A stretch of DNA of 53,698 bases from Nitrospira sp. (GTDB lineage Bacteria; Nitrospirota; Nitrospiria; Nitrospirales; Nitrospiraceae), in NCBI GenBank assembly GCA_005116775.1, contig SWDN01000011.1, forward strand, positions 232,483 to 286,180, written 5' to 3'. The translations under genes and the position numbers were made by a program. Numbering within the stretch: position 1 is the first letter of the stretch; every line of letters starts with the position of its first letter. Below the pieces are notes generated by a model. That model ran no database searches. It had not been told where the DNA came from and saw only the letters and a list, made by a program, of their open reading frames with translations. Below, in pieces: positions 38,660-53,237 of the stretch.

Positions 38660-40342
<1,683 letters not shown>

Positions 40343-40424: not shown

Positions 40425-41231
40425 CTACAGCGAATGCAGGACTTGGAGTCCCGCGTTCGCCTGAACGGCTAAGCCGGCAAGGCCGGCCCTGGCCTCCGGC
40501 GCGTTGCGTACGGGATTGGGAAAGGCCACCCGCCCACCCTGCATGCGGCCTGGCGCGGTGAGTCGAAGGTGAAAACCCAACCGGTCCAATGCCGTCACCG
40601 TTGCCTGCTGCGCCTCCACATTGCCGAACACACGGGCCAGGAGCAGCAACGTGTCCGCCTGCTCTGTATTGAATTCACGGATGAGGTTCGAGGCCTCATC
40701 CGCGAGCGGGTCCACGGCCGCCTCCGCGTAGTCATCCGGCATGACCCAACCCATCGACCCGAACCCCCCGACGAAATAGATCTCCGCCAACGCCATGCGG
40801 AAAAAACCAAAGTCCTGGAAGTCCACCCAATAGGAGGCGTTGGCATGGCGTGCCAGATAGCGTTCGCGAATCGCGACGGCGTCCTCCCTCGGCACCTTGG
40901 TCACCGACCCCATCAATGTCACCCTGGCCGCACCCAGCGGATCGGTACGGCTCTCAGGCGGTGTCACGAGTAAGCTGGCCCGTGGATCGCCCAGGAGGTT
41001 TTGCGTATGCATCGCCATCGTGCTGATCAGAAAGACCGGTTGCCCCTCGTCGTCCAACCCGTAGGGCATCACCGACCCGAATGGCCAGCCAGGCTGTTTG
41101 CGCGAGAGCGTCGAGAGACTACCCGTTGACTGCAAGTAGACAAGCGTCTTGGCCCGCTCGGCATGGGACGGCTCAGGAACGTCAGGACCCTCTGAATCCG
41201 GCCCGCTATTATGTTGGCGTGATGATGACAT
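40425..41231 (-). CDS. HugZ/pyridoxamine oxidase-like protein with DUF2470
   Basis: 268 residues from the ATG at 41231; the frame extends upstream but over a non-homologous Ser/Arg-rich stretch. The N-terminal half is a split-barrel flavin/heme-binding domain (PFGSVMPYGLDDEGQPVFLI, MAMHTQNLLGDPRASLLVT). The C-terminal half is DUF2470-like (LIREFNTEQADTLLLLARVF). Such proteins include HugZ-type heme-utilisation proteins, but no heme-transport genes are nearby. A HugZ heme role is therefore only a possibility. Confidence 0.87.
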   Translation of the reverse strand: MSSSRQHNSGPDSEGPDVPEPSHAERAKTLVYLQSTGSLSTLSRKQPGWPFGSVMPYGLDDEGQPVFLISTMAMHTQNLLGDPRASLLVTPPESRTDPLGAARVTLMGSVTKVPREDAVAIRERYLARHANASYWVDFQDFGFFRMALAEIYFVGGFGSMGWVMPDDYAEAAVDPLADEASNLIREFNTEQADTLLLLARVFGNVEAQQATVTALDRLGFHLRLTAPGRMQGGRVAFPNPVRNAPEARAGLAGLAVQANAGLQVLHSL

Positions 41232-41364
41232 GTTTGATCTCGTATCTGTGTAATGGACCGGGCGACACCTTACCCTGGATCTATCGAACATTTCCACTGA
41301 GGACAGGGTCATGCCAGAGGGTTCAATCAAACATTGGCCGACGGAGAGGCTGGAGCGGAGCCGG

Positions 41365-41532
41365 CTAGAAACCCATGTCTTGCGACAGCCTGACTTCCGA
41401 TTCGTCGTCGATTTCTTCCAGGCAGGTGAAGCAGGCAAAGGGAAACCGGTCGATGGGGATGGCGCAGACTTCGCCGACCGGCGATTCGTCCAGGGCAGGC
41501 CCGCCGCATTCTTTGTGAATCAACACCAGCAT
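41365..41532 (-). CDS. 55-residue Cys-containing protein, last gene of the membrane-protein operon
   Basis: A short gene of 55 codons plus stop. The ATG at 41532 overlaps the hydrolase stop by one base (TGATG) and has AAAGGAG six or so bases upstream, so translation coupling is likely. The sequence begins MLVLIHKECGG and has Cys9, Cys23 and the pair CFTC (34 and 37), with His6 nearby, then an acidic tail. This looks like a small zinc-ribbon-like or metal-binding protein. I do not recognise a family. Confidence 0.75.
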   Translation of the reverse strand: MLVLIHKECGGPALDESPVGEVCAIPIDRFPFACFTCLEEIDDESEVRLSQDMGF

Positions 41533-42287
41533 CAGCTTCTCCTTTGGACCAATCGCTGAAACAGTTCCAGATGTTCAGGGCTACTCAGCCTATGGTCTCC
41601 TGGAACCAGATGGAGTTCGACGGGAAACGAAGGAGCCAGGGATCGCAGCTGCTCGACAAACTGGCTACTGCCGACCGGCAGAATTACGCTATCTTGCTGA
41701 CCGTGAAGGATGGCCGTGTCCACCGACCTGAGTCGATCGAAGCTGGTTTTCCAATAAGCCTCGCTCTCCTCGACCCACTTCCACGAGAGTGGCCAATCTT
41801 TGTGCAAGGGCTCGTCGTCCCAGGGCATCCAGCCTGCCGTATGCCAATCATGCTGCCGTTCAGGATCAATAGATTTCGCGCGCAGGCCCATCATATTGAA
41901 GGCGGGAGCGATGAGGAGAATTCGCTCGACTTCCTGACACTCTTGCGCCATGAGCCAGGCGATCCAGCCGCCGAGCGAGTTGCCGACTATGGTAATAGGC
42001 GGCCCTTGTCGAAGAGTTTCAAGAACAGATCGCGCGTCGGTAATCCAGTCGGACAACGTGTAGTCGGTGAACGTCCCCTCCGAATCGCCGAACCCCCGCA
42101 CGTCATAACAACAAAACCCCCACCCCTTCTCCTGGCACCATTGCGCGAGAGCCTTGCTCTTGTTGCCCCAGCGTTTCGAGAGGAAGCCAGTGATGAAGAG
42201 AATCTGGCGATCCTTCCCCATCGAACGATCCCCTCGGATCAGTTTCCCGTCGACGCCTGCCAGTTCGAACGAATCCAGGCCACTCAT
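41532..42287 (-). CDS. Alpha/beta hydrolase
   Basis: 251 residues. Alpha/beta fold with the nucleophile Ser in IVGNSLGGWIAWLMAQ, a Gly-Phe-Gly-Asp loop (CYDVRGFGDSEG), the acid Asp in HGQQDSVILPVGS and the His in PGDHRLSS. No signal peptide is seen, so it is cytoplasmic. The start overlaps the stop of the upstream esterase gene (42284-42287, ATGA). The stop overlaps the start of the 55-residue gene. It belongs to a large family of acyl hydrolases or esterases; the substrate is unknown. Confidence 0.92.
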   Translation of the reverse strand: MSGLDSFELAGVDGKLIRGDRSMGKDRQILFITGFLSKRWGNKSKALAQWCQEKGWGFCCYDVRGFGDSEGTFTDYTLSDWITDARSVLETLRQGPPITIVGNSLGGWIAWLMAQECQEVERILLIAPAFNMMGLRAKSIDPERQHDWHTAGWMPWDDEPLHKDWPLSWKWVEESEAYWKTSFDRLRSVDTAILHGQQDSVILPVGSSQFVEQLRSLAPSFPVELHLVPGDHRLSSPEHLELFQRLVQRRS

Positions 42288-43003
42288 GGGTGAGTGACCA
42301 CCTTGGTGATGAACAGTCCCAGTCGCTGCAGCACTGCTCTCGGAATCTCATGGCCTCCACGGAAGCTGTGCCATTCGACCGGGAGTCCCGCGTGAATCAG
42401 TGTGTCTCGCAGCTTTTCCGCCCCAACATACGGCAGGATCTCATCGTGCATCCCGTGGCTTTGAAAGACCGGCAAGCCTTTGCGCTTCGGCATGAGTGGA
42501 CCCCACAGGGGCTGCGCCAGCACGTTACCGGAGAGCTGGACCAGTCCTGCATAGGAACGATCGCTGTGGAGCATCACATCGCACGACAGCATGGCGCCTT
42601 GTGAAAATCCTCCGAGAATGGTCTGGCGTGGGTCTGCGCCGAATGTGTGTTCGACTTCCTTCAGAAACGCCAGCATCTTCTCGCGCACAGGAGCCAGGCC
42701 TTTGGGAATGTCTTGCGAGAGATCCCTCACTCGGCCTGCCGCTTGATCCGCTGCAATACGCGCCATGTCGATGAGCCACCAGGCCCGCGCATCCTTCGGC
42801 CCGAAACTCAACGAGAGCGGGCCTTCAGGAAAGACAAACCTCGTACCGGACGGCACGGGTACGTCATCGGCCAACGACACAAGATCGTCCCCGGGCGCGC
42901 CGAAACCATGCAGAAGCAGGACGAGAGGACCGCGACCTCCACCCTTTCCGTCTGTGCCACCGGCGATTCGCGTCCGCAGCCCGCCTATATGTTCTTCACG
43001 CAT
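42284..43003 (-). CDS. Phospholipase/carboxylesterase family hydrolase
   Basis: 239 residues. The catalytic triad of the carboxylesterase/phospholipase family is clear: VLLLHGFGAPGDDLVSLA (oxyanion hole), LGGFSQGAMLSCD (Ser), SHGMHDEILP (Asp) and GGHEIPRAVL (His). It starts ten bases after the stop of the large membrane protein gene and overlaps the next hydrolase gene by four bases, so it is part of a four-gene unit. Hydrolysis of a short acyl ester or thioester is likely; the target is unknown. Confidence 0.93.
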   Translation of the reverse strand: MREEHIGGLRTRIAGGTDGKGGGRGPLVLLLHGFGAPGDDLVSLADDVPVPSGTRFVFPEGPLSLSFGPKDARAWWLIDMARIAADQAAGRVRDLSQDIPKGLAPVREKMLAFLKEVEHTFGADPRQTILGGFSQGAMLSCDVMLHSDRSYAGLVQLSGNVLAQPLWGPLMPKRKGLPVFQSHGMHDEILPYVGAEKLRDTLIHAGLPVEWHSFRGGHEIPRAVLQRLGLFITKVVTHP

Positions 43004-43013
43004 AAACGACCCG

Positions 43014-46000
43014 TTATCTCATATACAAATATTGGAGCAACGCCACAACGCCGTAGAGCGATGATTCCATCACCGGTTGTTGGTAAAACGGCACGAACGC
43101 GCCTTGTTCGTTGGCCTCCACTTCGTCGATGACATACTGGATCTGCTTGACACGCACATCGTGATCCTTCCCTGTCCCCAAGGCTTGAACCATCTGACGG
43201 CTGAGACCGGCCAACATGGCGGCTTTCGCCTTGCTGGCCGATTGGTACAACAGGAGTGCCCCCAGCAACGCCAGCGCGACGTTTAATGCCCACGACAGGA
43301 TCAATAGGAGAGGGTAGTTCCAGATGTCGAAGTAGTCGGTCCGCGCAGCGACCATAATCAGCAAGGCAATGAAGGGATACCGAATCAGACGATTCACGAC
43401 CGCGGTCCGCTGCGCGATGAGATCGATCACGGCCAAGTATTTCAGTTTGCCGAACTCGGCTTTCTGCGCCTCGCCCAGACCGTATTCCCGCAGATATTCT
43501 TCTTGAACCTGGTCGGACCAGCCACCGGTCGAGGCAGTCAACCAGCCGATCCACCGTCGGCACAACATCACGGCATCGAACACAGCTAGATTGAGCAGCA
43601 CGACCAAACCCACGCTGCTCAGGGTCATCGCCCAATCGATCGCGCAACTCAGCCGGCCTCGGCAGGGCTGGATCATTTCATCGTCGAGCACCCAGTATTC
43701 CAACGGCCACATGATTCCGAGGTACAGCAGGAACAGGAGAACCGTCCGCACTACCCGTTGCGACGGCTTGCCGGCCTCGCGATACCAAGACCAGGCTTGA
43801 TCCACGGTCGTCGCGGCCCTGGTCGCGGCCGGATGATAGACCCGTTGCAGGTTGGTCCAGAACGTCCTGAGCGACAATCGGCGGCGGCCCGAGTCATCTT
43901 CGAACAAAAAGTCCTCGCCGATGAAGTCGCTGTTCTTGGTCAGATCGCGCAAGCCTTTCCCCAGCATGACAAGGCAGAGGATGACGACGAAGAGGCGCAG
44001 GAGTTCGCTCGGCCAGACGCTGACCCCGGCGGTCCACGAGAAGGGTTCTCCTTCGTCATGATTGGCCAGGAGCGCCGTCGCGCCGCCGAACGCGACGAAG
44101 GCGGCAAACGACGCCAACACGATGATGGCCATCACTGCTAGCAGACGAGGATTCCGCAACACCCACAGCCACAGCCGCTGATTCGTCCAGGCCACGATGC
44201 CGGCGATTAGCAGTGCGACGACCAGCGTCGCCGCGACAGCGGTATTGTCGAACCCAACCCCCTGCTTTAAAGGCCCCTGTTCATCCGTATAGTCGAGGTC
44301 TTGCCTCAGCGGATGGACCGTTCGTCGCCCCTCCTTGTCCACCGGGCTCACATCCACCGCGCCGTTGCGCCCCACTTCGAAGATCCTGGGGTGAGGTCCC
44401 GCGTCATAGATACGGTCTTCCGGCGTCAACTCGACGTGGTAACCAGACGTACAGGGGGTCGCTGATAGCTGCTGGCCGACCGGCCGACAGGCGACAAACT
44501 GGACTGCTTGAAGGGCGGCCAGATAGGCCGATGTCTGATAGCTGCTGCGAAAAGGCGGAACGTCGCGTTGCAGCATTCCGTCCAGTTGCAGACCGAAGGG
44601 AGAAGCGGTCACCATATTGCGTGTCGATTTGTATTCGCTCTGGTGGAGGTGACGCGCGTCGAGATCGACGGTAAAGAAAATCGCGTGTGGAAACGACGGG
44701 CGGAGCGCCTTGATAATGAGCAGTGAATCGTATGGGTCGGTACCCAAGATTCCGATCGCCCTGGCGCCTTCCCCTTCTTCCTGAATGCGCGCGACCAGAG
44801 ATCGCACATAGTCGAGCTGACCGGTTCCTTCCGGACGCTCTCGCTGGGCGTCCTTGAGCTGATCCCCGGCCTTTCCCTTTTCTCCCCGGCCGGCTATCAC
44901 GCTGTCGTCTCCCGGCACTTCCCCATCGAGACCGCTGAGGTAGCTGTAACGGAACACGTTGAGCGTGAGCGATTCGTAGTCGGCGGGCCGTTGAATCTGC
45001 AGATCGATGGCCTGTGCGACGGTTGGGCACCAGGACTTGATGGTGGTCGGGACAAGAATCTGTTTCAGGTCGGCTTCCGAGAAGGTCGCCACCTTCGCGC
45101 AAGCTGCGGCTCGGAACTCGATGGGCAAGGCTCGCCCATAAAACGAATCCCATTCGCCGATGAGGATGACGGCGTCCCAACCCAGCCGCACCTGACGGCG
45201 TTCCAACTCCTCGACCAGCGCGACGAACAACCGATCATCCGAGCCGACATCGTAGACGAGTCGGACATTCGCGTTGGCCAGCCGACGGTGAAACTCCTGC
45301 TCACAGGATTCATAGGTTGTGCAGGCCTCTCCCTTTCCGCCGTCTTTCTTGAGCCCATAGGCAAGCAATCCCTTCATCGCGCTCGTCCATGGAGAATACA
45401 GTTCGATCGCGCCGCCGGTATTCGGCCAGACGCCGACCCCTTCGCGCGAATCAGAGTAGAGATCCCCCGCTTCCTGCAACAATGCGCGAAACGCCGATGA
45501 ACTGCGAGGGCCCATGATCTTGAACGTGACGGCCTGCTGAACGGCAGGATTCAATTGAACCAGCCTGCGCTTGTCGTCGGTCAGGAGGCATGCGTTCTTC
45601 TGCTGCGACTCCTGGCACACCAGGGCTTGGGACAGCGATGTCAAAGTCGTCAACAACCCTCGACTGAGGGCTTCGTCCGGTAGCCAAATGACGAGGATGC
45701 TGGAGGCATACGATCCCTCTTCTCCGCAGACCCGTGTCTTCCTCTGACGATACCATTCATAGGGTAACGCTTGAATGGCTCCTTGCGGTTCCCATTCAAC
45801 GAAGGAAAGATGGCCCTCGTCCTCAGGAACATAACAGGCGACGCCCAGGGCTGTGCCGATGGCGTAGCGATCACGGATACGCGATTCGGTGCTTTCGACA
45901 TAGGGACCTCCGCTCGTGGTCACCAGGAGGACCGTGACGCGCTGTCCGTTCTTGGATCGCTCGGCAAGAGCCTGTCTGAGCGGCGCAAGCCGTTGGGTGA

Positions 46001-46256
46001 GAGTGGGTTCCGGTCCGGCCGTCTTGCCGGCCGATTTTGTTTCTCGGATACCTCGCTGCACGGCCGCCACCGGATCTTCCCACAGCCGCGCACGGACCAA
46101 CTGTTCACCGGTCGTGTGTTTCATCTCCAGCCCGGTCCCGACCGGTCGCGAGCTGCGCAACGGTTCTTTCACCAGCAACACGCCGGCAATGGCCAGCACA
46201 AGCGTGAGCGCCCCCGCCACTGCCAGCTTTGAATCGCTCCGTCCTTTTTTTGCCAT
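43014..46256 (-). CDS. Large membrane protein with extracytoplasmic ligand-binding-like region
   Basis: 1080 residues. A hydrophobic anchor (about 10-30) leads into an extracytoplasmic region of about 640 residues. The rest has about seven further membrane helices (near 672-690, 705-730, 751-768, 836-858, 874-898, 958-973 and 981-1004) and a short cytoplasmic linker rich in charge (770-830). The soluble part has alternating strands and helices like a type I periplasmic-binding or amidase fold: VTVLLVTTSGGPYVEST (107-123), GWDAVILIGEWDSFYG (359-374), IGILGTDPYDSLLIIKALRP (501-520) and FFTVDLDARHLHQ (527-539). No named family is recognised. It heads an operon with two hydrolases and a 55-residue protein. 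Confidence 0.85.
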   Translation of the reverse strand: MAKKGRSDSKLAVAGALTLVLAIAGVLLVKEPLRSSRPVGTGLEMKHTTGEQLVRARLWEDPVAAVQRGIRETKSAGKTAGPEPTLTQRLAPLRQALAERSKNGQRVTVLLVTTSGGPYVESTESRIRDRYAIGTALGVACYVPEDEGHLSFVEWEPQGAIQALPYEWYRQRKTRVCGEEGSYASSILVIWLPDEALSRGLLTTLTSLSQALVCQESQQKNACLLTDDKRRLVQLNPAVQQAVTFKIMGPRSSSAFRALLQEAGDLYSDSREGVGVWPNTGGAIELYSPWTSAMKGLLAYGLKKDGGKGEACTTYESCEQEFHRRLANANVRLVYDVGSDDRLFVALVEELERRQVRLGWDAVILIGEWDSFYGRALPIEFRAAACAKVATFSEADLKQILVPTTIKSWCPTVAQAIDLQIQRPADYESLTLNVFRYSYLSGLDGEVPGDDSVIAGRGEKGKAGDQLKDAQRERPEGTGQLDYVRSLVARIQEEGEGARAIGILGTDPYDSLLIIKALRPSFPHAIFFTVDLDARHLHQSEYKSTRNMVTASPFGLQLDGMLQRDVPPFRSSYQTSAYLAALQAVQFVACRPVGQQLSATPCTSGYHVELTPEDRIYDAGPHPRIFEVGRNGAVDVSPVDKEGRRTVHPLRQDLDYTDEQGPLKQGVGFDNTAVAATLVVALLIAGIVAWTNQRLWLWVLRNPRLLAVMAIIVLASFAAFVAFGGATALLANHDEGEPFSWTAGVSVWPSELLRLFVVILCLVMLGKGLRDLTKNSDFIGEDFLFEDDSGRRRLSLRTFWTNLQRVYHPAATRAATTVDQAWSWYREAGKPSQRVVRTVLLFLLYLGIMWPLEYWVLDDEMIQPCRGRLSCAIDWAMTLSSVGLVVLLNLAVFDAVMLCRRWIGWLTASTGGWSDQVQEEYLREYGLGEAQKAEFGKLKYLAVIDLIAQRTAVVNRLIRYPFIALLIMVAARTDYFDIWNYPLLLILSWALNVALALLGALLLYQSASKAKAAMLAGLSRQMVQALGTGKDHDVRVKQIQYVIDEVEANEQGAFVPFYQQPVMESSLYGVVALLQYLYMR

Positions 46257-46373: not shown

Positions 46374-48584
46374 CTATGGGACGGGGACGACCTTGAAAAT
46401 GGCGTTGGTGTTGGAGACGTACACAAAGCCGTCGGCGCCGAGCATCAGGCTCAATAAGTTGCCGTTCCCGCCGTTGTAGGCGATGCTGGAGCTGCCGAGT
46501 TGTGTCAGGTCGGCGCCGCTTAAGACTACTCGGCGTATCTTGCCGCCGTTGAAGTCCACGAAGAGAAGGTTGTTTCGGTAGGCAGTTGGATAGACTGTCG
46601 AGTTCTCTGGGATCGCGATGATCCCGGTCGGCGCAATGGTTGGCGTATAGGCCAGGATGGGGTCACGGAAATTCGGATTATTAGCAATCCCTCGAACTGT
46701 CGGCCATCCATAGTTGCCGCCTGAGGTGATCCTATTGATTTCATCGCTATCGCCGGGACCGTTCTCCGTTTGCCACAGATGTCCTGTGTGCTGGTGGAAC
46801 GTGAATCCATAGCTGTTCCTGATACCGAGTGCATACACCTTCTTCGCGTTGGCATTCGCGTTCGAGACGAACGGATTGTCCGTTGGCGTGCTTCCATCTG
46901 GGTTCAGTCGAAGGATCTTTCCGGCCAGCGAGGTGAGTGACTGGGAGTTTGCTGTATTCCCGGCATCCCCGGTGATGATGTAGAGCTTGCCGTCTGGCCC
47001 GAACTGAATGATGCCCGCATTATGATTGCCGCTCGCGGGGATGTCGTCGAGAATGACGGTCTCTTGCGTGCAAGCTCCGCTCGATTCTGTGTATCGGACG
47101 ACGCGATTTCTCAGTGGGTTGCCGGCTGTGTAGTAGACGTAGACGAACTTGTTTCCGGCAAAATTCGGATCGAGCGTGAGGCCGAGCAGTCCTTGTTCAC
47201 CGCTGGTTTGGACCGTGAGTTGGCAGAAGGGGCTGTTCACCAGTTGCCATTGCTGGTTGATGATGCGAATCCTGCCCGTCAGCCGTTCGTTGAAAAACAC
47301 CCGGCCGTCCGGCGCCAAGGACATGCCGACCGGGAAGTTGAGATTCGGGAGAACGGATTGCAGCTGCAGATCGCTGCTGGGAGGCTGGCTCACGGAGAAG
47401 TTCAGCGTCTTCGTCGCCTCCGGATTGGCAAGTTCGCTGTGATTCGTATTGGCCAGGATCATGCGGACTTGATGCGCGGTGGATGGGAGACCGAAGATGT
47501 CGAACGACGTGCCGGTTTTCCAATGGACAAAGTGTGTATGGACGCCGTTATAGAGGACCCCGTTGTCATCGTTGATCCCGGCCCCGTTGTAGAACATGTA
47601 GGGCACAGGGTCATTATCGAGATAGAAATGTAGATGGGTCTGACCTGGTACGCCGATCGTGAAGAACTGAGTGGTGAATGAGACCGTGACCGGGCCTACG
47701 GGAACCGACGCATTCTGCGCCGGACTCATGATCGTGACGGACGGCTGATTGCCGGACTGAACGACGACTGAGAATATGATTGTCTTTGTCGCCTCGGCGT
47801 TCGCCAACTCCATATCCGAAATGTTGGCCAAGACCAATCGGACTTGGTGCGTGCCGACCGCGAGGGAGTTGAATAGGATCTGCGAATTGCTCAGCCATTG
47901 GACATTCGCCGCTGATGCGCCTTGATAGAGTACTTGGCCTGGCGAACCGGCATAGAAGTGATGCGGAATAGCGTCGCTGTCGAGATAGACATGGAGGTGA
48001 GGCTTATTGACGGCGCCGATCGTGAAGTTCTGGGTGGAAAACATGACCGTGACCGGCCCATTCGGCAGCATCGCATTGTTTGTCGGGCTGCTGATCGTGA
48101 CGGTCGGCGTCACCGCTGGAGGCATTGTGTTATTGGGAGGGCCTGGGGTCACGCCTGTCGGAGGATTCTGCGGTGTCGCCTGGGTGCCGGCTGTCGTGAC
48201 ATGACCGAGCGTGATGGAGCTCGGAGCATTGACGGCAAACACATTGCTGCTCGGATTTCCGAAAAACATCGGGTAGACATTGCCGCCCGTGATGAAGAAC
48301 AGGCGGATGTCGGTTCCCACAGGGAGGTTGTCGAGCGACCAGGCAAATTGGCCCTGGGCATTCGGCGTACCCCCGGCCGTGTCGTCTTCCGCAATGATTT
48401 GATCGCTGCTGTTCACCGCCACGATGCGAGTGCCGGAGACTGTCCCGCTGATCGAGATGCCAGTCTGAGCCGTGGGAGTTGTCCCTCCTCCTCCTGAACC
48501 ACTGTCGATGCAGCCGCTGAAGAGGAGCGCCAGCCCCGCAAGAGCGAGGGATCGGACGATACCGCTGTGTGGTGCGAATGTCAT
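46374..48584 (-). CDS. Lipoprotein: two repeat modules plus sugar-dehydrogenase-type propeller
   Basis: 736 residues from the ATG at 48584. Lipobox LLFSGC (Cys25). A small domain (about 40-130) is followed by two copies of a module of about 115 residues (160-272 and 280-398), each with a signature such as PHLHVYLDSDAIPHHFYAG or THLHFYLDNDPVPYMFYNG. The C-terminus (405-736) is a glucose/sorbosone-dehydrogenase-type beta-propeller: GMSLAPDGRVFFNERLTGRI, GEQGLLGLTLDPNF, HNAGIIQFGPDGKLYIITGD, SLAGKILRLNPDG, HLWQTENGPGDSDEINRI. Such propellers oxidise aldoses with PQQ, though cofactor binding here is unproven. A 14-base palindrome lies just upstream. It is closely related to the protein ending at 48841. 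Confidence 0.88.
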   Translation of the reverse strand: MTFAPHSGIVRSLALAGLALLFSGCIDSGSGGGGTTPTAQTGISISGTVSGTRIVAVNSSDQIIAEDDTAGGTPNAQGQFAWSLDNLPVGTDIRLFFITGGNVYPMFFGNPSSNVFAVNAPSSITLGHVTTAGTQATPQNPPTGVTPGPPNNTMPPAVTPTVTISSPTNNAMLPNGPVTVMFSTQNFTIGAVNKPHLHVYLDSDAIPHHFYAGSPGQVLYQGASAANVQWLSNSQILFNSLAVGTHQVRLVLANISDMELANAEATKTIIFSVVVQSGNQPSVTIMSPAQNASVPVGPVTVSFTTQFFTIGVPGQTHLHFYLDNDPVPYMFYNGAGINDDNGVLYNGVHTHFVHWKTGTSFDIFGLPSTAHQVRMILANTNHSELANPEATKTLNFSVSQPPSSDLQLQSVLPNLNFPVGMSLAPDGRVFFNERLTGRIRIINQQWQLVNSPFCQLTVQTSGEQGLLGLTLDPNFAGNKFVYVYYTAGNPLRNRVVRYTESSGACTQETVILDDIPASGNHNAGIIQFGPDGKLYIITGDAGNTANSQSLTSLAGKILRLNPDGSTPTDNPFVSNANANAKKVYALGIRNSYGFTFHQHTGHLWQTENGPGDSDEINRITSGGNYGWPTVRGIANNPNFRDPILAYTPTIAPTGIIAIPENSTVYPTAYRNNLLFVDFNGGKIRRVVLSGADLTQLGSSSIAYNGGNGNLLSLMLGADGFVYVSNTNAIFKVVPVP

Positions 48585-48591
48585 AGGCCTG

Positions 48592-48605
48592 CCCGTTGAA
48601 ACGGG
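48592..48605. other. Short perfect inverted repeat upstream of the propeller lipoprotein
   Basis: CCCGTT and AACGGG flank a two-base centre, eight to twenty-one bases before the start at 48584. It could form a tight hairpin near the ribosome-binding site or be an operator. The intergenic interval 48585-48840 has no other feature that I see. Confidence 0.35.
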
Positions 48606-48840
48606 AGGCCGCCCAATGAACCCACCGAGACAGTGAGTCGAGCAACCGCCCAAGTGAAACGCTGTTTCTCACTTGAGCATAAACAATGCCGGGGACTATG
48701 GGGCTGAATAGAGGCGTGGCTTCTTCACTCAGATCGTAGAATTGCCTTCGATGACTGTAGATTTCACGCGACGAGCCGTATGAGTAGCCATACAGCAACC
48801 ATGGAGGGATTTGGCTTCATTCCACGTCCAATTCCGTCGT

Positions 48841-51483
48841 CTATGGGCTGCTCAAAACTACTCGAGAGATCCCGGTCGTCGTCGTCACATAGATGAAGCC
48901 ATCTTGCCCGGACACATTGAGTCCGTGCATGACGCTGAACAGTGGGCCCTGCCCGCAGTCGCAGGCAATGCTGTGAGTGCCGAGGGTTCTCAGTTGGGGT
49001 CCGCCGAGCACGATCCGGTGGAGAAACCCGTTGTTGAAATCCGCGAACAACAGGTTGTTGTGGTACTGCGCAGGATAGACTGAGTCTTCCCGGATGGCGA
49101 CAATCCCGGTCGGCGCGACGCTTGGTGTCAGCGCGAGGATTGGATCTACATACGGAGGAGTGGCTGCAATTCCTTCGACCAGAGGCCATCCGTAATTGCC
49201 GGCGGGCACGATCCGGTTTATTTCATCGTCCGACAGATTACCGTTCTCCGTTTGCCACAGATCGCCTGTGTGAGGGTGGAAGGCAAAACCGAGACTATTG
49301 CGATGCCCCAGACTAAAGACTTTCTTCGCGTTGGCATTGAGATTCGAGATGAATGGATTGTCCGTCGGCGCGCTGCCGTTCGGATTTATTCGGAGGATTT
49401 TCCCCGCAAGCGACGTGAGCGACTGAGAATTTGCCGGGTTCTCGGCATCGCCGATGAAAACATAGAGCATCCCGTCAGGACCGAACTGGAGGACGCCGCC
49501 ATTGTGGATAGAAGACGACGGGATATTGTCGAGGATGATCGTGGGCGTCGGATTATCCGCGACCGTGTTGCCGTTCGTGACCGTGGCTCTGAACCGGACG
49601 ACGCGATTCATTGAAGCGCTGGGAGGATGGAAGGCATAGACAAACCCGTTCGTCGCGAAATTAGGATCGACCGCAAGGCCCAGAAGCCCTTCCGGGTTTC
49701 CGACCGGTACTGTGGCGAACGGCGTCGACTGTAATTGCCACGGAAGGGACGGCGTGGGTCTGACCACACGGATGTTGCCGGTAGACAGCTCGCCGACAAA
49801 AATGCGCCCGTCCGGAGCCGTCGCCATCGGGACCGGGGAGTTCAGATTGCCGACGACTACTTGCAACGAGAACGCTCCGCCGGTTCCCGGCGAGACCGTG
49901 AAGGTCAGCGTCTGTGTCGTGGCGGTCAACTCGACTCCCGACTGATCGACCAAAACGAACCGGATATTGTGAGCACCGGATGCCAGAGCATTGAGCTGAA
50001 TCGAATTTCCAGACTTCCAATGCACGAAGTGCGTATGCACGTTCTGATAACGAACCCCGCTCGTACTGCCATCTTCGGTAATTCCTTGTCCATCGTAGAA
50101 CCTGTGCACAGTTGTGTCATTGTCGACATAGAAGTGCATCCGTGGCTGAGCCGAGGTCGTAACGGGAGAATTTTGAATGGTGAACGTGACAAGCGCCGGC
50201 CCGGGAGATAGCGGAGTGGTACCGAGACTATTGACCGTCAGGGATGGACTCCCACCGATTGGCGCATTGATCGTGAATGAGACGACTGCGGTAGCTTCGG
50301 TATTAGTTAGTTCCGTTGCAACGCTATCCCCGTTCGCGAGAACAAATCGAACAGAATGGGCTCCTTCAGAAAGCGATAGAAACTGGAATATGTTCGTGTT
50401 CGTGCGCAGAACGGATGTAGTAGGTGCACCGTTGTACCAGACCTGGTTCGTTGGGCCATTCAAAAATTGATAGACGTTCGGGTCTGTATCTACATAGAAG
50501 TGGAGTTGTGGTTGGCCCTGCCCTTGGACTGTAAAATGTGAAACGGCAAACGTCACGCCCACCGGTCCAAACGGGAACACTTGGGCAGGAGTTGGGCTTG
50601 TAACCGTGACTGTGGAAGGAGGATTTGGTGGTGGCTGGTCTACTGTGAATTGAACCAACGTGCTCGCTTGTGAATTAACAAAAGGGGTATGTGACGCCGT
50701 GGCCAATTCCAGAGTTACGATATGCTGCGCTGACGACAAATTCAGTAGGAGGAATTTGGTGCTGCTTATCCATCGGGCGTTCACCGCCGGTGAGTCATTG
50801 TAGAGAATCTGTCCAACCGGTGACCCATTTACAAATTCATAGGGGTTCTGATCGGAATCAACACGGAAGTGCAAATGATCGTGATTCTGATCTCCAATCG
50901 TTACGTGTTGGAGGTCGAATGTAATATCAACAGGACCGGAAGGCACCGTCGCATTATTGACTGGAATCGCTACGGTCACAGCTGGGGGAAGTGGAGTAAC
51001 ACCTGGAGGGGAGGGGAAATCGGAAACAGGAGGCTCAAATTCAACGCCAGCATTCGGCGGGTTTGGAAGGACGGCCTGATTATTCGCTGTCTCTACGGTA
51101 CCAAGATTCACCGTGCCCGCAGACGTAAACCTAAAGACGTTTGTCAGAGGACTTCCAAAATGCAGAGGGTAGACCGCTCCTCCAGTGATGAAGAAAAGTC
51201 TTACCTTGGTCCCTACCGGAACATCGTTCAGCGTAAAGACGAATGGAGGCGCTTGATTCAGTGTTGCTGTATCAAACTGACGAATGACTGTATTGGTCTC
51301 AGCATTGAGGATTTTAATGACCGTCCCCGATACCGTGCCGGTGACGGTCACAGACCCAGCAGGAGGCGCAGGGGGAGTCGTGATCCCGCCTCCATCAGAC
51401 CCGCCTCCACTACAGGAGGCCAGACCAAGCACAAGAATGGCGCAGGCAACAAATCGACTCAACGATTGATTCCATCCGTTCAT
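48841..51483 (-). CDS. Lipoprotein: three repeat modules plus sugar-dehydrogenase-type propeller
   Basis: 880 residues. Lipobox LGLASC (Cys24). It has the same layout as its downstream neighbour but with three modules (about 167-283, 290-406 and 413-530), carrying HDHLHFRVDSDQNPYEF, QPQLHFYVDTDPNVYQFLNG and QPRMHFYVDNDTTVHRFYDG. The propeller (about 538-880) shows MATAPDGRIFVGELSTGNIR, EGLLGLAVDPNF, HNGGVLQFGPDGMLYVFIGD, SLAGKILRINPNGS and DLWQTENGNLSDDEINRI. Compared with the paralogue the extra module and longer N-terminal part indicate duplication and gain or loss of modules. The first-domain segment VRLFFITGGAVYPLHFG is conserved between both. The start (ATG 51483) lacks a good ribosome-binding site. 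Confidence 0.88.
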   Translation of the reverse strand: MNGWNQSLSRFVACAILVLGLASCSGGGSDGGGITTPPAPPAGSVTVTGTVSGTVIKILNAETNTVIRQFDTATLNQAPPFVFTLNDVPVGTKVRLFFITGGAVYPLHFGSPLTNVFRFTSAGTVNLGTVETANNQAVLPNPPNAGVEFEPPVSDFPSPPGVTPLPPAVTVAIPVNNATVPSGPVDITFDLQHVTIGDQNHDHLHFRVDSDQNPYEFVNGSPVGQILYNDSPAVNARWISSTKFLLLNLSSAQHIVTLELATASHTPFVNSQASTLVQFTVDQPPPNPPSTVTVTSPTPAQVFPFGPVGVTFAVSHFTVQGQGQPQLHFYVDTDPNVYQFLNGPTNQVWYNGAPTTSVLRTNTNIFQFLSLSEGAHSVRFVLANGDSVATELTNTEATAVVSFTINAPIGGSPSLTVNSLGTTPLSPGPALVTFTIQNSPVTTSAQPRMHFYVDNDTTVHRFYDGQGITEDGSTSGVRYQNVHTHFVHWKSGNSIQLNALASGAHNIRFVLVDQSGVELTATTQTLTFTVSPGTGGAFSLQVVVGNLNSPVPMATAPDGRIFVGELSTGNIRVVRPTPSLPWQLQSTPFATVPVGNPEGLLGLAVDPNFATNGFVYAFHPPSASMNRVVRFRATVTNGNTVADNPTPTIILDNIPSSSIHNGGVLQFGPDGMLYVFIGDAENPANSQSLTSLAGKILRINPNGSAPTDNPFISNLNANAKKVFSLGHRNSLGFAFHPHTGDLWQTENGNLSDDEINRIVPAGNYGWPLVEGIAATPPYVDPILALTPSVAPTGIVAIREDSVYPAQYHNNLLFADFNNGFLHRIVLGGPQLRTLGTHSIACDCGQGPLFSVMHGLNVSGQDGFIYVTTTTGISRVVLSSP

Positions 51484-51624: not shown

Positions 51625-52269
51625 TTACGATGAGCAGCTGACTGATAAATGCTTGCCCCAGTTGGGAGGCGGGGCTGCGTAGACGTCCATGCCTGGCTGG
51701 TCACTGTAGGGGTTTTGCAGCAGCGTGAGCAACCGATCAATCTCGGAGAAGTCCTTCTGCTGAGCCTTCTCGATAGCGGTCTGCGCCAAGTAGTTGCGGA
51801 GCACGTACTTGGGATTAACGCGGTTCATGCGGACCAGGCGGTCGTCGTCTCGACTCCCCTCTTCGCACAGCCGCTCCTTGTACCGACGAGCCCACTGGTC
51901 GAATGATTCACGATCCAGGAAGAAGTCGCGGAGCGGCTCATTCAGCGACTCGGTTCCAGTCTGGAACAGCCCCAACGCTCGAAAGAAATTCGTGTAATCG
52001 ACATGGTGCAGGTGCATGAGCGCCAAGAGGTCCTGGATCAGCGATGCATCCTCCTCCTTCGTCTCGATGAATCCGAACTTGGCCCGCATCAACTCCATGT
52101 AGCGGCCTTCGCAGAGGGGAGTATAGCGATCGAGTGCAGCTTTCAACACGTCCTTTGAGGCCAAGGGGAGCAGCGCCTGAGCCAAACAGCTGAGATTCCA
52201 GAGACCGATATAGGGCTGTTGATTAAACGCATAGCGGCCGTTGTGGTCGGAGTGGTTGCAGATGAAATG
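51625..52269 (-). pseudogene. selO: selO (YdiU) 3' remnant
   Basis: SelO is a protein AMPylase with a kinase-like fold of about 480-550 residues. Here only the last 214 or so are present. Homology starts abruptly at HFICNHSDHNGRYAFNQQPY and continues through LWNLSCLAQALLPLA to the conserved C-terminus MDVYAAPPPNWGKHLSVSCSS, with Cys where selenocysteine occurs in some eukaryotes. Upstream the frame meets a TGA and a hairpin, and no kinase-domain motifs are found in 52270-52553. The apparent start at 52185 (TTG) is internal. This looks like a truncated gene, not a functional short form. Confidence 0.88.
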
Positions 52270-52553: not shown

Positions 52554-53234
52554 TTACGGCTTGGATGAAGCGGCATGGTAGAAGCGCCAAATGGGATCAC
52601 CGGACTTGCGTTTGGGAGCGTCGGAGTCCCGACAGCGGAATTGTCCGCTGTAAATCAGGGGAATCCGCAGGAAGATGGGAGTGCAGGAAGCGGTGAGGGT
52701 AGCTTCAACGGTCAGCTGCTCCTTGCGAACTTTGACGAGGTCTCTCTCTCCATAAACCAAGCCGCACCTACCGTTGGGATTAGCCCCCTTGTCGAGGGAC
52801 TCGCCGACAGCGCCTTCGTAACAAACCAGGTTGGGGGAGACGACGATACGACGCTTTCCTCCGACGGCCATGCCGTTCAAACCCCAGACAATACCCAGTT
52901 GCTGAGTGGACAGCAAACCCCGTTCTCGAACGTTATTGTGGATAGAGAGATCTCCTATCATACCCCAGTAGGTAATGGCGGGGCCCTCGTAGACGAGGGA
53001 GCCATCGCTGTATCGGACAACGATCTCCGCAATCACCTTGCGTCCGGCGGCGGCGACGGGACCCTCGCCGACCTTCAGGTCTTCGAGTTGCAACAGGTCG
53101 CGCTTGAGCCGCTCGTAATGTTGGACGGCTTCAGGAACGAAGGGACTGGGTTGATAGGACCCATGCTCTTCGTAAAAGGTGCAGCCGGCTTGGGCAAGGA
53201 TGAAGGTCAAGAGTATCAAAGTGCGCTTCAGCAT
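52554..53234 (-). CDS. FKBP-type peptidyl-prolyl isomerase-like lipoprotein
   Basis: About 226 residues from the ATG at 53234 (the adjacent ATG at 53237 is closer to the AAGGAG site). The lipobox is LAQAGC. The FKBP features are DLKVGEGPVAAAGRKVIAEI, VRYSDGSLVYEGP and GLNGMAVGGKRRIVVSPNL; the usual hydrophobic pocket seems partly altered and a Cys pair occurs near the end. After about residue 165 an unconserved tail follows (TLTASCTPIFLRIPLIYSG). It may fold proteins in the periplasm, or be a divergent FKBP fold without activity. Confidence 0.82.
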   Translation of the reverse strand: MLKRTLILLTFILAQAGCTFYEEHGSYQPSPFVPEAVQHYERLKRDLLQLEDLKVGEGPVAAAGRKVIAEIVVRYSDGSLVYEGPAITYWGMIGDLSIHNNVRERGLLSTQQLGIVWGLNGMAVGGKRRIVVSPNLVCYEGAVGESLDKGANPNGRCGLVYGERDLVKVRKEQLTVEATLTASCTPIFLRIPLIYSGQFRCRDSDAPKRKSGDPIWRFYHAASSKP

Positions 53235-53237
53235 CAT

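Follow-up and report, generated by a model that had tools for sequence, protein, structure and literature searches.

The window analysed here, a stretch of 53,698 nucleotides from a Nitrospira genome (GenBank assembly GCA_005116775.1, contig SWDN01000011.1), contains four closely packed genes on the minus strand, termed P1 to P4. The largest, P1, encodes a protein of 1080 residues that we read, with a probability of about 0.45, as an inner-membrane ligand-sensing receptor in which a Venus-flytrap domain is combined with a membrane domain of the 7TMIC kind (the insect gustatory and odorant receptors), its gene forming part of a Nitrospira gene cluster. The sensing, the gating and the ligand we infer. 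The initial annotation of this DNA had described the four genes as a packed unit, and its junctions were confirmed: a gap of 10 bases between P1 and P2, an ATGA overlap of 4 bases between P2 and P3 and a TGATG overlap of 1 base between P3 and P4. From this spacing the four genes would form a single transcript; a promoter and terminator scan gave signals at the shuffle background.

P1 had been called a protein that could not be placed, and it has no match in Pfam, NCBIfam, PADLOC or PHROGs, nor in the plasmid collection. An AlphaFold2 model built from 50 diverse sequences reaches a pLDDT of 78.1 and a pTM of 0.77, with values in the flytrap block of mostly 70-96 and weak loops around residues 221-230, 271-280, 441-480 and 591-600. 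Foldseek matches the ectodomain of this model, at a probability of 1.00, to SAR11_0655, to leucine-binding and urea-binding proteins and to the Venus-flytrap domains of class C G protein-coupled receptors (GPCRs). A first model, made from 15 mostly close sequences (pLDDT 61), was used as a second and weaker query, with which the match to PBP1 (type-I periplasmic-binding) proteins recurs; having sequences and method in common, the two models are not independent, and the matches were taken from the best 50 of 625 and 584. These results argue strongly for an ectodomain with the two-lobe fold of the type-I periplasmic-binding, or Venus-flytrap, kind. Family alignments of P1 contain from 31 (50 rows) to 44 (45 rows) invariant residues, many of them polar and located in the flytrap. 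In all 50 rows of divergent sequences the polar ectodomain residues D370, R375, Y439, D482, D507, D510, N547, S552, R570 and Q574 do not vary.

The two-lobe fold would be common to P1 and the type-I periplasmic binding proteins such as the Leu/Ile/Val-binding protein, the urea-binding protein and SAR11_0655. Unlike these, P1 is predicted to carry a membrane anchor and to continue into a polytopic domain, and it has no Peripla_BP hidden Markov model (HMM) match. By description, and not by sequence, it is also similar to System 4, a two-gene conflict system for which PMC7159879 reports an extracellular periplasmic-binding-protein domain joined to transmembrane (TM) helices. An ABC importer was considered and set aside, as the nine annotated genes of the window include no permease or importer ATPase and EttA is a translation factor.

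The description of P1 as a membrane receptor-like protein, also made in the initial annotation, is supported by its C-terminal half. The hydropathy of P1 alone gives seven clear TM helices after the flytrap, and across 37 rows of the family eight hydrophobic segments are present (residues 672-690, 713-731, 748-766, 839-857, 876-894, 954-972, 986-1004 and 1063-1081), the last of them in a tail whose best 19-residue hydropathy ranges from 0.94 to 1.98. In the same rows the loops 770-834, 897-946 and 1003-1060 are enriched in lysine and arginine. Segments and charges together point, with moderate confidence, to nine TM helices in all, with the N-terminus inside and the C-terminus outside. In the model, DSSP assigns three long helices of 41-44 residues, 868-908, 929-971 (broken at 958) and 983-1026, followed by a last helix that is split, at the level of secondary structure, into 1032-1048 and 1061-1079.

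Counted from the C-terminus, this arrangement fits, in helix lengths and secondary structure, the pattern set out for 7TMICs by Benton and Himmel (2023; PMC9998090), who list a long cytoplasmic anchor formed by TM4-6 and a TM7 divided into 7a and 7b. The Foldseek comparison proposed in the initial annotation returned, besides the flytrap, weak matches to insect gustatory receptors with E-values of 0.03-0.18, among them Gr43a and BmGr9. The model from 50 sequences finds 8jm9 (E 0.033, probability 0.97), and that from 15 sequences finds 8zdz (E 0.042, probability 0.99) and then 8vc2, 8uvt, 8vv3 and 8jm9 (E 0.09-0.18). P1 would share with 7TMICs the long late helices, the split last helix and an external C-terminus, and differ from them in having a large periplasmic flytrap and two additional TM helices ahead of the 7TMIC-like part. 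In a study in Current Biology in 2023, Himmel and co-workers reportedly described thousands of bacterial and archaeal 7TMIC members. The review PMC11526382 places 7TMICs in prokaryotes and speaks of transfer from eukaryotes. The case for a 7TMIC-like fold in the membrane half is weak to moderate, and the assignment is best regarded as a lead with structural support, short of established membership. Bacterial 7TMR-DISM receptors resemble P1 in having an extracytoplasmic sensor domain followed by a seven-TM region; P1 lacks their fused intracellular signalling module and has a different ectodomain. Receptors of the 7TMR-DISM type are named in PMC1592074.

Several observations weigh against reading P1 as a flytrap receptor of the 7TMIC kind. 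Searches of P1 against PDB sequences, profile searches included, gave nothing significant, the best match being an opsin-b562 fusion (E 0.1), and a comparison by hhalign with one Peripla_BP_6 protein was negative, this being a weak test with a single sequence. For 45 family members examined at E-values up to 1, neither Peripla_BP/ANF_receptor nor 7tm_7 is among the 24 Pfam families listed, and the best family is COX15-CtaA (two members, E 0.0005). The 7tm_7 HMM (PF08395) is also without a match at the P1 loci of 15 genomes. The gustatory-receptor matches are judged on scores only; they are not significant by E-value alone, and their target-normalized TM-scores are 0.34-0.40. The top whole-chain matches are class C GPCRs, whose chain ends inside the cell, and the last helix of P1 itself is only mildly hydrophobic (Kyte-Doolittle 0.99). 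PMC9998090 reports no Orco-like structure among the prokaryote proteomes that it screened. Finally, P2 stands behind P1 in each of the 60 loci that hold both, and this may yet reflect a functional link between them. In addition, P1 has no TYhhhhhQF motif as such; tails ending in a [QE]Y-like pair occur in many rows, with a non-canonical spacing.

If the receptor reading is correct, a signal anchor would hold the Venus-flytrap in the periplasm, one further TM helix would lead the chain into the cytoplasm, and the seven-helix domain of the 7TMIC kind would start there and end with its C-terminus outside. A small solute would close the flytrap and so move the membrane half; relatives of this fold have amino acids, urea, aromatic acids and sugars as ligands. 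The simplest outcome would be the opening of an ion pathway in an oligomer of P1, and the alternative would be a change in the cytoplasmic helical 'anchor' that is presented to a partner protein. The P1 gene would have entered once, or been later lost from, the Nitrospira SelO-P2-P3-P4-(HugZ)-EttA-RmlD cluster, with which, by its position, it would probably be co-expressed; the cytoplasmic serine hydrolases and the mini-protein would be part of this cluster without necessarily working together with P1.

A fuller version, in which P1 represents a new bacterial receptor family of Nitrospira, Nitrosospira and Nitrosovibrio whose Venus-flytrap gates an ion channel of the insect-chemoreceptor (7TMIC) type, with the Nitrospira copies lying within a SelO/serine-hydrolase operon, is tentative. 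Such an architecture would parallel the class C GPCRs and the ionotropic glutamate receptors, differing in its pairing of a flytrap with a 7TMIC, and no bacterial flytrap-7TM(IC) fusion was found described in a literature search that covered few subscription journals. Were the fold reading true, a bacterial flytrap would drive an insect-receptor-like channel, giving a tractable model of gating by a separate domain, with a bearing on the origin of animal chemoreceptors and flytrap receptors. Nitrifiers are of great importance ecologically, and P1 would then be a candidate for one of their environmental sensors. Should the flytrap alone hold, P1 still stands for a family without a library match in 37 genomes of the window's family.

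These 37 genomes belong to a Nitrospirota sample in which P1 was found, at E-values up to 1e-10, in 41 of 198 genomes, the others being three from the rest of the order and one from elsewhere. Homologues also occur in scattered proteobacteria: a sample of the class of Nitrosospira contains P1 in 9 of 369 genomes (seed genome counted), and among the 398 genomes of a phylum sample 6 have it, two of these having already been found. The copies of Nitrosospira briensis and Nitrosovibrio (L131, L132) group beside Nitrospira paralogues with a support of 82, a placement that suggests transfer between nitrifiers of two phyla, the ammonia and the nitrite oxidisers.

The surroundings of the distant relatives are varied. 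One has a same-strand guanylate cyclase plus TPR-S (L180:10474-11898) and another a same-strand LCAT-like hydrolase with TPR-S (L154:224-2857). TPR proteins are present near P1 in L051, L053, L126 and L135, a gene of L127 groups with them, and L155 has a receiver domain plus TPR. In L158 (2969-6728), from the sample of the Nitrosospira class, the DNA just upstream of P1 encodes a hybrid histidine kinase together with a sigma-54 response regulator. A gene family with an NnrS member (L126:13319-14515) is found near P1 in six loci (L126, L125, L127, L128, L133 and L051), and a gene of the type VI secretion system Tle1-like phospholipase family (L182:2701-4212) lies a few kb upstream in another. 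An anti-phage defence role was considered because TPR-S proteins flank two of the distant relatives; it was set aside, P1 having no PADLOC match and lying, in Nitrospira, in conserved synteny with EttA and RmlD. TPR-S is not mentioned in PMC7159879.

Some of these neighbours bear on whether P1 needs a pore at all. It might be a flytrap relay, with cytoplasmic helices that signal to TPR proteins, cyclases or two-component proteins, in keeping with the TPR, cyclase or two-component genes that adjoin several distant relatives (L180, L154, L051, L053, L126, L135, L155, L158) and with the neighbour group of the L158 kinase, which recurs in 5 of 28 distant loci. However, no neighbour group exceeds 6 of the 28, many neighbours are unannotated, TPR and receiver proteins are common, and P1 itself has no fused signalling output domain. 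We consider a relay of this kind unlikely.

The class C GPCRs (mGlu, CaSR, TAS1R) offer another comparison, as they too have an extracytoplasmic Venus-flytrap followed by a multi-TM domain. Full-length TAS1R2, mGlu5 and CaSR are the best whole-chain Foldseek matches, with alignments of about 1050-1170 columns, and the seven clear helices after the flytrap in P1 alone would agree with a bacterial analogue or ancestor-like form of these receptors with a cytoplasmic C-terminus. Against this, TM-scores of 0.22-0.31 and root mean squared deviations of 27-35 Å mean that flytrap and 7TM do not superpose jointly, and the whole-chain score probably comes mainly from the flytrap. When the first model is the query, no full-length class C chain appears above rank 7 (E 0.01). 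The P1 family has eight hydrophobic segments after the flytrap where class C GPCRs have seven, the eighth (1063-1081) being C-terminal and poor in lysine and arginine; the count of TM helices there is seven or eight according to whether this last segment crosses the membrane. P1 further differs in being bacterial, in its predicted N-terminal signal anchor and in the short distance, about 30 residues, from the flytrap to the next TM helix. Very long late helices fit class C GPCRs poorly. A class C form of P1 is held to be quite improbable.

The genomic context of P1 was compared across a species-genome collection, in which 319 of 416 pattern-matched stretches encode relatives; the best 80, covering 77 loci, were kept. 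The order P1-P2-P3-P4 recurs in Nitrospira. All four genes are together in 47 of the 77 loci, P2 being present in 60, P3 in 57, P4 in 48 and SelO, which in relatives usually lies upstream of the cluster, in 58. In all 60 loci that hold both, P2 comes after P1 on the same strand within 325 bases, and in 49 of these the gap is no more than 30 bases, the distances being extrapolated from the ends of the tblastn matches. Downstream, the order often continues into HugZ (variable), EttA and RmlD, and a second, partly overlapping set of relatives has the same gene order. Among the 17 loci without P2, the sequence ends inside P1 in four and no more than 116 bases past the match in two (L114, L124); in the other 11 over 2 kb of sequence follows P1, but their P1 is distant (30-33 % identity).

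For the distant P1s this association is largely absent. Neither P2 nor P4 lies beside the distant P1 in any of the 11 loci with room for them, and P2, P3 and P4 are all absent beside it in 14 further loci (L153-L159, L180-L185, L187). L050-L053, also with a distant P1, have no P2 or P4 match, and L050, L052 and L053 have no P3 either; the exception is L051 (genome G047), where a P3 relative (57 %) is located some 1.2 kb upstream of P1, in the same orientation. The expectation that P1 homologues would be followed by the same two hydrolases and small protein therefore holds in 47 of the 77 loci and fails for the distant ones, apart from the P3 relative of L051. The finding that was to speak against a joint system, P1 homologues never occurring with the hydrolases, is contradicted in the Nitrospira clade and nearly true in the rest of the family.

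The converse is also seen. In a set of 61 genomes, the window's own included and with search thresholds that differ between genes, P1 is present in 32, P2 in 45, P3 in 32, P4 in 30 and SelO in 50. In four P1-less genomes of the window's family SelO immediately precedes P2, at a distance of 4 to 82 bases, in the orders SelO-P2-P3-P4 (G016, G003), SelO-P2-P4 (G021) and SelO-P2 (G033), and in G987 the order is SelO-P1-P2-P4 with P1 split over two frames. In another family of the same order (f3), P2 is present in 12 of 12 sampled genomes (51-56 % identity), and a distant P1 in three of the 12, located away from P2.

In a quick maximum-likelihood tree built from 49 homologues of P1, all 25 operon-linked proteins fall together to one side of a single branch (SH-aLRT 99), the operon label having been given by linkage, plus L114, where the contig ends; long-branch warnings apply outside this group. 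Eight of the 11 P2-less loci with ample downstream DNA are in the tree and all fall outside the operon-linked group. As the operon-linked copies form one group, P1 probably entered, or later left, the SelO-P2-P3-P4 cluster. The simplest account is a single entry between SelO and P2 followed by losses, the direction of gain or loss being something we infer, and an old presence of P1 followed by losses may also explain the pattern. Since P1 and P2-P4 are separable, P1 is better seen as a co-located gene of the cluster than as a demonstrated partner of the hydrolases.

P2 and P3 are, as first annotated, two different alpha/beta hydrolases, of the Abhydrolase_2 and Hydrolase_4 families, with complete and conserved triads. 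P2 matches PF02230 (E 7e-24, 85.3 bits against a gathering cut-off of 23) and, among PDB sequences, 4f21 (E 8e-15), with acyl-protein thioesterases among its relatives; its Ser-Asp-His triad, with a GxSxG motif, is invariant in 57 homologues. P3 matches PF12146 (E 8e-18, 65 bits against a cut-off of 27), and its likeness to ABHD10 is based on the best PDB sequence match (6ny9, E 1.8e-19). Across 54 P3 homologues S104 and D199 are always conserved, and H232 in all but one. The small cysteine protein P4, which has no match in Pfam or PHROGs, proves to be a genuine gene: among 42 ungapped homologues the mean proportion of non-synonymous differences (pN) is 0.077 against a synonymous proportion (pS) of 0.52, the pattern expected of purifying selection at the sequence level. 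In an alignment of 24 rows, of which L043 (wrong coordinates) is to be disregarded, H6, C9, C34 and C37 show little or no variation. No hydrophobic segment or TM helix is seen in P2, P3 or P4 by Kyte-Doolittle analysis, so the three should be cytoplasmic, and the predicted binding domain of P1 should face the periplasm, on the opposite side of the membrane.

This arrangement matters for the system first proposed for the locus, in which P1 imports or senses an ester that P2 and P3 hydrolyse in the cytoplasm. The position of P2 behind P1 in 60 of 60 shared loci, mostly within 30 bases, the intact triads of both hydrolases and the P3 relative of L051 are in its favour. It does not agree with the persistence of all or part of P2-P4 without P1, SelO then occupying the place of P1 upstream of P2, or with the distant P1s that lack P2 and P4; the genes of a dedicated four-gene system should not persist without each other, and these do. 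Among the best 50 Foldseek matches there are soluble ABC binding proteins but no transporter fold, and nothing indicates an ester as the ligand of P1. We give this proposal little credence. No better placed is a redox or protein-modification operon (with SelO for AMPylation, and the APT-like P2 and ABHD10-like P3 for deacylation) running from SelO through P1-P4 to HugZ with P1 as its envelope sensor, for which SelO in 58 of 77 P1 loci, the acyl-protein thioesterases among P2 relatives and the ABHD10 match of P3 would speak, and against which stand a P2 orthologue located apart from SelO (G035), the varying gene content and, to our knowledge, the lack of any known bacterial substrate of protein S-acylation.

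Table 1. Positions of the four genes, the predicted parts of P1 and annotated neighbours in the window.
Feature	Position	Strand	Description
P1	43014..46256	-	1080 aa; N-terminal TM, predicted flytrap-type ectodomain and about eight further predicted TM helices
P1 N-terminal TM	about residues 11-29		hydropathy, model
P1 predicted Venus-flytrap (type-I periplasmic-binding) domain	44337..46004	-	about residues 85-640; AlphaFold2, Foldseek
P1 membrane half	43017..44246	-	residues 671-1080; DSSP of model, family hydropathy, Foldseek
P2	42284..43003	-	239 aa; Abhydrolase_2 (phospholipase/carboxylesterase, acyl-protein-thioesterase-like); S134-D187-H218
P3	41532..42287	-	251 aa; Hydrolase_4 family, ABHD10-like; S104-D199-H232
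P4	41365..41532	-	55 aa; HxxC...CxxC mini-protein (zinc-ribbon-like by eye)
SelO (protein adenylyltransferase) C-terminal fragment	51721..52269	-	PF02696 match at G000:C3:284203-284751
HugZ/CREG-type protein	40425..41438	-	PF13883 E 1e-30, PF10615; start is first in-frame TTG
EttA	38660..40342	-	NCBIfam TIGR03719 E 3e-280; syntenic neighbour downstream

The window departs from the SelO (YdiU) neighbourhoods of P1-less relatives, in which SelO is directly upstream of P2, in that SelO is only a fragment and two genes precede P1. These are tandem glucose/sorbosone-dehydrogenase-like genes on the minus strand (46374-48653 and 48841-51483), between the SelO fragment and P1; the protein of the first has a borderline Ig-like (Big_7) match just below the cut-off, and some relatives likewise have such genes upstream of P1. 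The SelO of this genome is in two fragments on two contigs, that of the window (profile positions 274-464) and G000:C5:1-447 (profile 4-149); together with the other sequence found upstream of the window fragment, this points to a rearrangement or a misassembly. Downstream of the cluster, the TTG start of the longest HugZ-like open reading frame overlaps P4, and an in-frame ATG well downstream is the probable true start, so that a miscall by a gene caller could cost P4 its annotation. Finally, a lipoprotein-like open reading frame at 52554-53237 (minus strand) resembles, by eye, an FKBP-type prolyl isomerase.

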